Source: an uncultured Dorea sp. (GTDB lineage Bacteria; Bacillota; Clostridia; Lachnospirales; Lachnospiraceae). Taken from it: DNA of 64,000 nucleotides. Location: positions 1 to 64,000 of the forward strand of contig CAMBRQ010000009.1 in assembly GCA_945870325.1 (NCBI GenBank). The letters run 5' to 3'. This document shows positions 1 to 58,163 of this stretch, one piece after another. Below the pieces are notes generated by a model, which saw only the letters and a list, made by a program, of their open reading frames with translations, made no database searches and was not told the DNA's origin. The translations under genes and the position numbers were made by a program. The first letter of the stretch is position 1; each line of letters begins with the position of its first letter.

Positions 1-70
1 CCAGAGCCACTAAGCCTCATCCTTGCGCCGTACACTTTCCAACACTCCACTTTCTACACTAAATTCCCAA
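1..70 (-). ncRNA. Structured element SE4, 5' part only (cut by window edge)
   Basis: Read on the minus strand, 70 to 59 gives TTGGGAATTTAG, and 35 to 28 gives GTGTACGG. These are the two 5' motifs of elements SE1-SE3 (34033, 34960, 57843), at the same spacing (about 23 bases) with the same GAAA-type purine patch between them. Positions 27 to 1 would be the left arm of the outer stem; its partner lies outside the window. Unlike the other copies, no gene clearly ends just before it; it points away from folC. Function unknown. Confidence 0.5.
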
Positions 71-33869: not shown

Positions 33870-34031
33870 ATGAAAGAGACGAAATCTTCTTTTACGACAG
33901 AAAAACCGATTGATTATACGGAGACTAAAGATGCTTATGATGGTAACCTGCGTTCTGACGAGAATGTTAAATCCGCAGAACCTCTGCCGGAAACTAAACG
34001 ACCACGGAAGGATGGACCGGGAGGGGAGTAA
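33870..34031 (+). CDS. Small conserved-looking protein, 53 aa
   Basis: A 53 aa hydrophilic protein (starts MKETKSSFTTEKPIDYTE, ends KRPRKDGPGGE). A good ribosome binding site (AAAGGAG) lies nine bases before the ATG. No signal peptide, membrane segment or known fold. The charged KRPRKDGPGG tail suggests an unstructured nucleic-acid- or protein-binding end. I believe related small proteins occur in Lachnospiraceae but cannot confirm it here. Structured element SE1 starts one base after its stop. Confidence 0.6.
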   Translation: MKETKSSFTTEKPIDYTETKDAYDGNLRSDENVKSAEPLPETKRPRKDGPGGE

Positions 34032-34032
34032 A

Positions 34033-34360
34033 TGGGAATTTAGTTCTTGAAGAGTGTATGTGGAGTGTACGGCAGAGAGGGGCAGTATGGGCGTTCATAT
34101 CCGACTCCAATCGCCTACAATTCGTAGGTTCAAAAGAGGTCTGGAATCAGGAATCGAATGTAATCGTCGGAGAAAATCTGAAAGATTTTTCCGACTCAGA
34201 CATTCTTGAATTCTGTGCTTGTGGCACAGAATTCATCCTGATTTCAGACCTCTTTTTTACCAACGGATTGTACGGCTCTTCTACGGATATGAACGCCCAT
34301 ACTGCCCCTCTCTGCCTGACATTCTTATGTGTGACTCTTCATGAACTGTGAGGATTCCTG
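34033..34360 (+). ncRNA. Structured element SE1 (candidate ncRNA or mobile element)
   Basis: Starts TGGGAATTTAG (34033-34043) and AGTGTACGGC (34064). A perfect 31-bp outer stem joins 34072-34102 to 34285-34315. A 21-bp inner stem joins 34132-34152 to 34236-34256. Hairpin A has GAATGT/ACATTC and an internal loop ending TCAG. Hairpin B (34208-34234) is a perfect 11-bp stem with loop TTGTG. CCTGAC (34315-34320) and GGATTCC (34352-34358) close the unit. A weak hairpin with TTTTT follows at 34351-34375. No protein-like frame. Confidence 0.7.
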
Positions 34361-34627
34361 AAAACAATCCTTTTTGAGCAAGGTATGAAAGCATGCATAG
34401 CCTTGCACTTGTAATTTGCACTATATTACATACCGCTGGGCGAGTTTCCTGCGATAAGGTATGTAAAATCACGCGGAATAGAGCATCTAATCCTCTTCAT
34501 TACATACTGGCTGCCTCCTTCCCCCTTCCTGTTCTTTTCACACGCCCACGCTTCCATCTTCCACCCAATATTTCTCCATGTATCGCCCCGGTATCCCCAC
34601 CAATACCGCTCCACACATCCACTCCCA
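34361..34627. other. Gap between convergent elements SE1 and SE2
   Basis: No credible gene. It holds two short hairpins, GCAAGG...CCTTGC (34378-34406) and TTACATACC...GGTATGTAA (34426-34466), then a pyrimidine-rich plus strand. The open frames seen here run through the repeats and have no ribosome binding site. Confidence 0.5.
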
Positions 34628-34960
34628 CCGGAATCCCACACACACAGGAGAAAGCCTTGAGTCCACGGAGATGTCAGGTGCAAGGGCAGGGAAGTTGTGG
34701 GCTGCGGCCGTATCATAAGCCTTAGACCTCGTTGCAGAAAAAGATACCGTTCGTTCGTGCGAAACCAGGACTACAAGTCCTGGTTTCGAGGGCATCTGAA
34801 TCGTAAGACCCTCAAGGGCTTACGACGAATATGCCCGGTTAGAACTGACGATATCTTTTTCTGTTACGAAGTCTTGGCGAAATAATCCGGCCACAGCCCA
34901 CAACTTCCCTGCCCTTGTACCGTACATTTCCGATAATCAATTTTCTCCCCTAAATTCCCA
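34628..34960 (-). ncRNA. Structured element SE2 (candidate ncRNA or mobile element)
   Basis: Minus strand: TGGGAATTTAG (34960-34950) directly after the TGA of the aldo/keto reductase gene; ATGTACGG near 34926; outer stem between 34918-34884 and 34713-34679 (33 of 35 paired); inner stem GAAAAAGATA...TATCTTTTTC; hairpin A GGGCAT/ATGCCC with internal loop ATTCG/TTCAG; hairpin B (34787-34761), perfect 11 bp with loop TTGTA; CCTGAC (34678-34673); GGATTCC (34636-34630). Same plan as SE1 but unrelated stem sequences. Confidence 0.7.
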
Positions 34961-35839
34961 TCAAATACGAGGAACCCCGTCGCGTTTATTCCTGCGCTCT
35001 TCCACCATTTTTACAAACCATTCCACCATAGCCGGGTCGTAATGGGCAAAGAAGGCACTTTTCGCTTTATCAAGCGCTGCGATCATCTTCATATCCTCAT
35101 CATCCAGCGCAAAATCGAATACCCGGAAGTTTTCTTCCATGCGTTCTTTGTGGGTAGATTTTGGAATCACTACCACACCACGCTGCAAATGCCACCGAAG
35201 CATAACCTGAGCGGTTGTCTTACCGTATTTCTGTCCAATTGCAGCAAGCACCGGATTCTCGAATAAGCCTCCTCTTCCTTCACCAAACGGAGCCCATGCT
35301 TCCATCTGCACCTGATACTTCTCCATATATTCTTTTGCCAATTTCTGCTGATTAAATGGATGGACCTCTACCTGATTTATCATAGGCTTGATGTTCGCAA
35401 AAGAGGCAATATCCACCAAACGATCCGGATAGAAGTTAGAGACACCAATTGCTCTTACCTTTCCTTCCTTATATAACTCTTCCAGCGCACGGTAAGCACC
35501 ATAATAATCAGAAAACGGCTGATGCAATAAGATCAGATCCAGATAAGAAGTCCCAAGTTTTTCCATAGACTCCAATACAGACTTCTTCGCCTGCTCATAT
35601 CCATAATGCTCAATCCACACCTTTGTCGTCAGGAAGATATCTTCCCTTGGAATGCCGGATTTGACGATGGCACTTCCTACCTGTTCCTCGTTAAAATAAC
35701 TTTGAGCTGTATCTAATGAACGATATCCAACCTCAAGCGCATCTAATACACAACGTTCACATTCCTCCTGTGTTACCTGATATACACCATAACCAAGCTG
35801 CGGCATCTTCACTCCGTTATATAAAGTTACATAATCCAT
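34961..35839 (-). CDS. Aldo/keto reductase
   Basis: A 292 aa NADPH-dependent oxidoreductase of the AKR5 (2,5-diketo-gluconate reductase-like) type. Catalytic residues in SLDTAQSYFNEE (Asp, Tyr), TTKVW (Lys) and LILLHQP (His); cofactor end VVIPKSTHKERMEEN. The frame opens seven codons earlier; GGAGG eight bases before the ATG at 35839 sets the start. It follows the flavodoxin gene by about 20 bases. SE2 begins right after its stop. Confidence 0.92.
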   Translation of the reverse strand: MDYVTLYNGVKMPQLGYGVYQVTQEECERCVLDALEVGYRSLDTAQSYFNEEQVGSAIVKSGIPREDIFLTTKVWIEHYGYEQAKKSVLESMEKLGTSYLDLILLHQPFSDYYGAYRALEELYKEGKVRAIGVSNFYPDRLVDIASFANIKPMINQVEVHPFNQQKLAKEYMEKYQVQMEAWAPFGEGRGGLFENPVLAAIGQKYGKTTAQVMLRWHLQRGVVVIPKSTHKERMEENFRVFDFALDDEDMKMIAALDKAKSAFFAHYDPAMVEWFVKMVEERRNKRDGVPRI

Positions 35840-35860
35840 TCTTATATCCTCCTCATACAT

Positions 35861-56603: not shown

Positions 56604-56705
56604 CAGATGTTCCCCAAACGTCCTTGCGGGTCTCTTTTTCTTCTGCTATACTTCCGATAAATCAAAGGAACCTGTATTTTATTCATGATTGATAAAGGAG
56701 TAATT

Positions 56706-57845
56706 ATGCCATACTACATAACCTACGGTGATTTTCAATACCATTTGAAAGAATATTATCAGAGAACCGGAAGCCGGATGCAGTTTCCGGAGATGACGGA
56801 CTACCTCTATTACAAAGGGTTATTATCCGACAAACCGCTGCCAGGGCTGCCTGCCAATAAGATGTATGGTTCCATGTCGGATGAAGAATTTGACAAGGTG
56901 ATGGATTCCTTCGTTCTGGCTCTGACCCCGAATACTTCCATAACTTCCAAGGTCGATGAGTCTGTAATCATCCCTCAGACCAGAGATGTATTCGTAATAC
57001 GCCATCCCAGATATACCCGTCCGGCTCCGCATATTCATAATTATTTTGAGATTGATTTTGTTGCCTCGGGACAGTGTACATTTGTCTTTGAAAACGAGAA
57101 ACGCACCCTGAAGACAGGAGAATTGTGCATCATTGCTCCGCATTCCAGACATGACCTGACGATTGATGATGAATCCACTGTTTTCTGCATCATGATACGA
57201 AAAAGCACCTTCAATACGACATTTTTTTCGCTCATGTCACAGAAGAATCTGCTGTCCTACTTTTTTAGAACCATTCTGCAAGGGGATTCGCATTCAAACT
57301 ATCTGATGTTTTATTCGGAGGATGTGGTCTGGCTGAAGAATATCATAAGAAATGCGATGTCTGAGTGTTACAAACGAGATGCGTTCAGTAATAATAATTG
57401 TATCAGTTGGATTCATCTGTTCTTCTCCCATCTGATCCGGGATTACAGTAAGACGATCCAGTTCTACAACTATCAGATGGGCACGGACTTTTCGCTGATC
57501 CTGCAGTATATCCAGCACAACTATCAGTCATTAACACTGGCTTCACTTGCAGAATTCTTCCACTACAGCGAACCGCATCTTAGCACACTGATCAAGCAAA
57601 ATACGGGATGCAGTTTTACAACGCTGGTGAAGCAGCTGCGGATGGCAGATGCTGTGTCTTATCTGACGAATACGCAGATGAAGATTAGTGAGATTGCAGA
57701 ATGTATCGGGTATAATTCGGCGGATCATTTTTCACGGGTATTTCGGGCGACACATAAGATGTCTCCGCAGGAATACCGGAAGAAACATCAGACGCAGGAG
57801 GAATTGTTTATGCCGTTTGAGGAGATTAAGGAGGGGAATTGGTAG
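56706..57845 (+). CDS. AraC-family regulator of the glycoside locus
   Basis: A 379 aa protein. A divergent ~100 residue N-terminal part, then a cupin sensor (PAPHIHNYFEIDFVASGQ, LCIIAPHSRHDL) and a C-terminal double HTH (LASLAEFFHYSEPHLSTLIK, ISEIAECIGYNSADHFSRVF, MSPQEYRKKH). Divergent from the GH3-GH78-GH65 operon. It is the best candidate to bind the TGTCGG-N17-ACATGG sites. Start at 56706 after AAAGGAG. Its TAG stop is also the first three bases of element SE3. Confidence 0.88.
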   Translation: MPYYITYGDFQYHLKEYYQRTGSRMQFPEMTDYLYYKGLLSDKPLPGLPANKMYGSMSDEEFDKVMDSFVLALTPNTSITSKVDESVIIPQTRDVFVIRHPRYTRPAPHIHNYFEIDFVASGQCTFVFENEKRTLKTGELCIIAPHSRHDLTIDDESTVFCIMIRKSTFNTTFFSLMSQKNLLSYFFRTILQGDSHSNYLMFYSEDVVWLKNIIRNAMSECYKRDAFSNNNCISWIHLFFSHLIRDYSKTIQFYNYQMGTDFSLILQYIQHNYQSLTLASLAEFFHYSEPHLSTLIKQNTGCSFTTLVKQLRMADAVSYLTNTQMKISEIAECIGYNSADHFSRVFRATHKMSPQEYRKKHQTQEELFMPFEEIKEGNW

Positions 57846-58163
57846 GAATTTGGTTGGGAAGAAGGTTTTTAGAGTGTACGGCGTGTGGAGAAATCGAAGG
57901 CTGGCAGCCGGAGTCCTGCGCTAAGAATATGTAACAGAGCAAGAGACAGAAATATCGTAACCGGACTGATTCAATCAATCATCTTGATGATGATTGCTTT
58001 CAGCAGTCCTCTCAACTTTGACTTGTGGTCAAAGTTTCGTACGGTATTTCTGTCTCTTGCTCTGTAACATATTCTAGTGCTTGTCCTACGGTTGCCAGCC
58101 TTCGATTCCTCCACACACCTGACGTTTCTAATGGGCGGTCTTTCTCAACGAGTAGGATTCCGG
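57843..58163 (+). ncRNA. Structured element SE3 (candidate ncRNA or mobile element)
   Basis: TAGGAATTTGG (57843-57853), whose TAG is the AraC stop; AGTGTACGGC (57873-57882); outer stem 57883-57910 with 58089-58116 (25 of 28 paired); long inner stem GAATATGTAACAGAGC...GCTCTGTAACATATTC; hairpin A GGACTG/CAGTCC with internal loop ATTCA/TTCAG; hairpin B (58014-58036), perfect 9 bp with loop TTGTG; CCTGAC (58118-58123); GGATTCC (58155-58161). The rest of the gap to 58279 is AT-rich, without a gene or clear terminator. Confidence 0.7.

Follow-up and report, generated by a model that had tools for sequence, protein, structure and literature searches.

Between two convergent genes of the window (the whole 64,000-nucleotide stretch of DNA analysed here), the hairpin halves SE1 and SE2 lie inverted to each other and make up one composite element, at 34033-34960, which occupies the interval from one stop codon to the other. 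These giant hairpins appear to form a DNA repeat family that spreads and has so far escaped description. We put at about one half the probability that they are a new family of DNA elements: giant, dispersed hairpins that are non-autonomous and work like oversized REP/REPIN palindromes. To the earlier note, which had recognised a family of structured elements from the letters of the window, the analysis adds the paired composite, five subfamilies, the position at stop codons, terminal inverted repeats and a spread over a dozen genera. In the literature searched, mostly open-access papers, we found no description of this hairpin family.

A composite element and its copies in the host genome

Three full copies (SE1, SE2 and SE3) and a fragment (SE4) had been claimed for the window, and all four were confirmed from the sequence (Table 1). 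SE4 is short because the window begins at base 1 of its contig. The opening motif TGGGAATTTRG, which the earlier note had described as shared, does not extend to SE3; this copy starts with TAGGAATTTGG and is therefore missed by a strict pattern search.

Table 1. Coordinates of the hairpin elements and of their flanking genes in the window
Feature	Position	Strand	Basis or remark
SE4, first 70 bases of one half	1..70	-	cut by contig end
Small flanking ORF, 53 aa	33870..34031	+	read directly from sequence
Composite element	34033..34960	.	two rods tail-to-tail; termini pair in predicted fold
SE1, left half, subfamily 1 rod	34033..34359	+	inverted-repeat arms, fold, subfamily grouping
SE1 conserved core (middle bulge, inner stem, hairpins A and B)	34101..34288	+	model R1, 167.0 bits
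Composite centre	34360..34627	.	TTACATACC...GGTATGTAA-type small hairpins and SE2 tail
SE2, right half, subfamily 3 rod	34628..34960	-	inverted-repeat arms, fold, subfamily grouping
SE2 conserved core	34707..34890	-	model R1, 168.8 bits
Aldo/keto reductase-type flanking gene	34961..35860	-	stop TGA 34961-34963 touches composite
AraC-type regulator gene, upstream of SE3	56685..57845	+	stop codon 57843-57845
SE3, single rod, own subfamily	57845..58162	+	first G common to TAG stop of AraC-type gene
SE3 conserved core	57908..58092	+	model R1, 186.1 bits

The inverted-repeat ends of the composite, TGGGAATTTAG and CTAAATTCCCA, are paired in the predicted fold of the whole element (-450 kcal/mol), and a single base separates its left end from the TAA (34029-34031) of the 53-aa ORF. 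Short palindromic TTACATACC...GGTATGTAA units recur in the centres of many composites, including this one, up to several consecutively, and have the look of another repeat family lying within the first.

The host genome (2.6 Mb in 63 contigs, 82.5% complete) holds 30 matches to the strict 5' motif pair and none to the same pattern read backwards. Looser 5' and 3' patterns gave 58 and 49 matches, respectively, and their controls gave 0. The 64 half-elements examined lie mostly in tail-to-tail pairs, and the 22 composites measured span 483-1247 bp. Single halves are also present (SE3 and copies in L104, L106 and L123), as are truncated ones (L103, L105). Many host-genome contig ends, for example those of C4, C5, C9 and C14, break inside hairpin elements, so short-read assemblies undercount and fragment them.

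Full halves could be drawn from 42 of the 65 half starts tried, and they group into five subfamilies of 18, 11, 10, 2 and 1 members, with identities of 0.56-0.67 between subfamilies and means of 0.82-0.90 within the larger ones. SE1, SE2 and SE3 fall in three different subfamilies. The proposal that stems are unrelated between copies does not carry over to the full set. The rods are about 321-335 nt long, with cores of 184-188 nt in representatives of all five subfamilies. Rod and tail identities are nearly uncorrelated (0.24), and rod pairs that are 95-100% identical have tails that are only 41-56% identical. Thus, rods have been exchanged apart from the composite centre; this exchange may have occurred either by movement or by gene conversion.

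Covariation and the symmetry of stem mismatches

Each rod folds far more stably than its dinucleotide shuffles when folded alone (z-scores of -18.6 for SE1, -15.2 for SE2 and -16.6 for SE3), and inverted-repeat arms were found independently in all three: 41 nt at 93% in SE1, 91 nt at 79% in SE2, and 34 nt at 88% plus 36 nt at 94% in SE3. Two apical hairpins top the rod. Several unpaired motifs are conserved: (i) the foot, GGGAAT/ATTCC; (ii) the middle bulge, TTCGCnAAGAA...TAA / TAAC...TTCTAAnGCTC; (iii) an AC/TG internal loop; and (iv) the loop of hairpin A.

A consensus structure built on 11 representatives has 105 pairs, 75 of which show at least one double change. Using a covariance model of the core (R1), we gathered 126 copies, 120 of them distinct (alignment A6). 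Over the distinct copies, 94.4% of cells are paired, and changes on both sides affect 2735 cells (724 in shuffles). A6 was fitted to R1, its cells are not independent, and one of its rows repeats another copy on the opposite strand (L098). The covariation score of A6 is 0.911 against 0.210 shuffled, a value reached by none of 500 shuffles, and pairing falls to 35-44% when the partner is slid by 1-3 columns. Two of the five A6 statistics do not discriminate: pairs with a double change barely exceed the shuffles (61 against 58.1; 6/500), and further pair types show no excess (218 against 217.4; 252/500). Covariation in this hairpin family is very strong, as the earlier note had argued when it proposed selection for a fold. 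Its failure to match a named RNA family also holds, with 0 gathering-level Rfam matches in the window or in the loci of 20 relatives, and a permissive search of 33950-35000 returned one chance-level match only (E 9.5). A match to a named Rfam family or mobile element, or a lack of both further copies and significant covariation, had been named beforehand as counting against the proposal; we found no Rfam match, many further copies and significant covariation.

Is the fold kept as RNA or as DNA? A fold kept as RNA is expected to tolerate G.U and to avoid A.C. Within subfamilies, where the alignment is safe, we found G.U:A.C cells at 45:40, 26:19 and 23:20 (94 against 79 in total) and columns at 27:25, 17:11 and 12:15. 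In the wider alignment the ratios are 45:60 for the host genome and 62:90 for the relatives. Mismatches of other kinds number 83 and 124 there, and misalignment may account for some of them; the counts exclude pairs in which fewer than 60% of cells are Watson-Crick (3/63 for host-genome rows, 1/63 for relatives). In contrast, 24 distinct tRNAs of the host genome, counted over their acceptor and T stems, gave G.U:A.C = 23:0 (Fisher p 7e-9, cells not being independent). Covariation with G.U tolerated and A.C avoided, the signature of an RNA, is thus displayed by the tRNA control and not by the rods. Since A.C is about as frequent as G.U in the stems, pairing seems to be kept strand-symmetrically, at the level of DNA and not as a folded RNA. 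The earlier note had left RNA and single-stranded DNA side by side; the symmetry favours DNA. In covariation scans, the ratio of G.U to A.C offers a simple test for separating DNA hairpins from structured RNAs.

Placement at stop codons, anatomy and spread

A dominant sense gene lies upstream of 45 of the 64 halves in the host genome, and for 38 of those halves the stop codon of that gene ends no more than 10 bases from GGAATTT. The bases before the rod foot vary and are usually the gene end itself; in nine cases the gene uses the element's own GGAATTTAG-type stop. Ten of the 22 composites are convergent, 11 tandem, one unclear and none divergent, with the window composite scored as tandem because its 53-aa left gene was lost to a longer reverse frame. 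Both stops lie within 10 bases in eight of the ten convergent cases. The proteins of purD, purA, dUTPase and cytX match their profiles to the end or nearly so, and natural C-termini are therefore kept beside the elements.

When two relatives were examined along with the host genome, most copies with an upstream sense gene began no further than about 10-15 bases from its stop. In the relatives overall, a sense gene precedes 61 of 82 matches. Its spacing to the core is fixed in G085 (22/25 matches, stop 67-83 nt before the core) and in G035 (9/13, 69-73 nt) and loose in G015 (9/13 with a sense gene, 88-214 nt), and a sense gene precedes 3/6 matches in G114 and 5/10 in G148. The stop-codon rule is thus weak or unproven in G015, G114 and G148.

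Two related genes of G035 that share their final residues, at L158:1900-2808 (-) and L196:1743-2252 (-), both have an element sitting at their stop codon. NCBIfam gave them no name, and they resemble recombination-promoting nucleases. Another two genes carry elements in both G085 (L162) and the host genome (C46, C55), with protein identities of 77% and 82%; they are convergent around one composite in G085 and lie at the ends of two contigs in the host genome.

Sense orientation and stop-codon spacing are what one would expect of a structured RNA at mRNA 3' ends, which would follow the stop in sense, protect the transcript or end transcription, and spread because its copies are useful. Some inner stems, read by eye, are indeed flanked by A-runs and T-runs like two-way terminators, but the T-runs are absent from other subfamilies, and in 11 of 22 composites one half has no preceding sense gene. 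As A.C mismatches equal or exceed G.U, unlike in tRNAs of the same genome, and Rfam holds no match, we consider such an RNA unlikely.

The strict pattern occurs in 1 of 299 genomes of the bacterial family, the host genome itself. The R1 core, in the covariance-model search that the earlier note had proposed, recovered further copies in the host genome and reached at least 13 of 150 family genomes taken one per genus, that is, at least 12 of 149 besides the host. A limited number of candidates was scored per genome (17 for the family, 6 for the class, 150 in a deeper search), so presence counts are lower bounds. The deeper search of eight genomes gave from at least 5 to at least 110 core matches with both strands counted, and its highest figures (at least 104 in the host genome, at least 110 in G015) take in weaker opposite-strand matches. 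Class-wide, at least 2 of 391 genomes match, the host genome and G383 of another family. The match in the latter, L257:500-656 (-), is a core-like hairpin with the same bulge motifs, at 55 bits.

G035, a closed genome of one contig with 13 matches, displays a different anatomy. Its elements are single, with no tail-to-tail pair within composite range among the 13, and each joins one rod to a second hairpin, with a terminal inverted repeat closing the unit. Both ends could be located in 10 of 12 copies examined, which are 362-476 bp long (438-476 bp in most) and end in AAATTCAGG-type and CCTGAATTT-type inverted repeats. Folded whole, one copy forms a long closing stem from its ends around the rod and second hairpin, and in two copies both ends have changed together to AAATATAGG/CCTATATTT or nearly so.

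Such ends raise the alternative of a conventional MITE, whose terminal repeats would be recognised by a DDE transposase that moves it, with the internal rods as passengers. The clear terminal inverted repeats of G035, the paired ends in the host genome and the internally deleted copies that retain both ends all suit it. Yet no target duplication was found in the 22 host-genome composites (the best matches sum to 31, and to a mean of 35 after shuffling), and none was visible by eye in the G035 copies. No parent element was found either, rods are exchanged apart from tails and also occur single, and a passenger rod should not covary so strongly. We therefore regard the MITE as unlikely.

Alternatively, there may have been no transposition at all: old gene-end hairpins would owe their copies at other loci to gene conversion and their continued pairing to template switching. 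The differing histories of rod and tail would fit, and so would purD (90% protein identity between the host genome and G035), which bears an element in both, in each case of the type belonging to that genome. Conversion, though, requires a pre-existing copy at every place, and few of the sampled element-bearing genes are common to genera. The patchy spread also speaks against this idea, which we find highly doubtful.

The search for a mobilising enzyme and comparison with known systems

No mobilising enzyme was identified among the genes and genomes examined, and no copy examined has a gene inside. Nor is there a recurrent partner gene among the flanking proteins: 114 of 158 were used, trimmed to at most 330 aa with those under about 120 aa left out, and they match 156 Pfam families, the commonest of which has 3 members. 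Wider rod pairs in G114, G148 and G035 were considered as autonomous versions with a gene between two rods, and they enclose ordinary host genes. The host genome has an ordinary IS200-type Y1 transposase gene (L134, contig C38) and a broken Y1 fragment (L135); the rod motifs adjoining the former are scattered one-mismatch matches only. As for carriers, the strict pattern gave no viral match, the one viral match of a second pattern is unsupported by R1, phages and plasmids gave no blastn match to the elements, and three pattern matches in a wider collection of genome contigs are likewise unsupported by R1.

Y1 transposases as large as those associated with REPs are present in 7 of the 12 genomes that carry elements and in 5 of 30 that do not (6 with one weak partial match; p 0.019), the latter being genomes without a core among the matches listed. 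They are absent from G148, G114, G046, G118, G129 and the host genome, at its 82.5% completeness, and none of the nine such loci tested holds a rod core. One supported clade of the Y1 tree unites seven rows from element-bearing genomes with two from element-free ones. Labels are not significantly clustered over the tree, with 89 of 500 shuffles as low; one of its 17 rows was dropped for lack of a protein, and several rows are truncated frames. A link between these transposases and the elements may thus be taken as a lead only.

How would such elements spread? We propose that they probably travel as folded single strands of DNA; that they move, that an enzyme moves them, and why they sit at stop codons are what we infer. 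A DNA strand would fold during replication or transfer, a trans-acting enzyme would read the foot and bulges, and the folded single strand would be cut out and joined elsewhere. Recognition would hold loops and foot constant, and stems could drift because their mismatches would be corrected against the opposite arm, by gene conversion or quasi-palindrome correction. Imperfect palindromes are known to undergo correction by template switching (PMC3820800). Insertions would survive at stop codons, where the gene stays intact. A bolder version, possible and held tentatively, would make the elements a separate mobile-DNA class: self-folding hairpins of 330-1250 bp, moved single-stranded by an enzyme of a type yet to be identified, which settle at stop codons and often rebuild them, their stems being free and only shape and loop motifs being read.

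Should the reading as oversized palindromes be right, this bacterial family carries a class of repeats whose structure is maintained in DNA, which is why earlier scans centred on RNA could not put a name to it. The elements would also provide a clean test system for the persistence of long palindromes in genomes, for the matching of arms during drift and for an enzyme that moves folded DNA to gene ends.

At the ends of IS200/IS605 elements and the attC sites of integrons, imperfect hairpins whose unpaired bases are conserved are recognised as folded single strands. The rods share these hairpin features and differ in size, in their two-lobed form and in having no tyrosine transposase or integrase gene adjacent. 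With the large bacterial RNAs of Rfam they have a large conserved structure in common, but their mismatch pattern is unlike that of RNA. The MITEs of insertion sequences resemble them in terminal inverted repeats, in small size and in the lack of a gene in the copies examined; here, by contrast, there is no target duplication, the internal rods are under strong pairing constraint, and single and paired forms occur.

The closest comparison is with REP, REPIN and BIME sequences and their TnpA-REP (RAYT) transposases. REP/REPIN palindromes measure 20-40 bp, whereas the rods, at about 330 nt, are about ten times larger; REP/REPINs bear a GTAG/CGTC tag at the foot, and the rods have no constant tag tetranucleotide. 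Because of size and tag, we do not file the elements as REP/REPIN members. Five freely diverged stems in one genome and the lack of a linked transposase set them apart as well. Inverted pairs are found in the host genome (the 22 composites), though not among the 13 matches of G035, and the extragenic position at gene 3' ends is common to both (38/45 within 10 bases, 0/22 composites divergent). Many extragenic hairpins, inverted pairs and mosaics, conserved stem mismatches, proximity to the 3' ends of flanking genes and element ends that supply stop codons are all shared (PMC3733652, PMC8266576, PMC3116915). REPs of Pseudomonas entomophila and Sphingomonas wittichii have the same placement close to 3' gene ends, and REPs placed convergently, less than 20 bp away from either gene, often provide a TAG stop codon (PMC3733652). 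TnpA-REP itself, as PMC8266576 describes it, reads folded single-stranded hairpins and requires their bulge.
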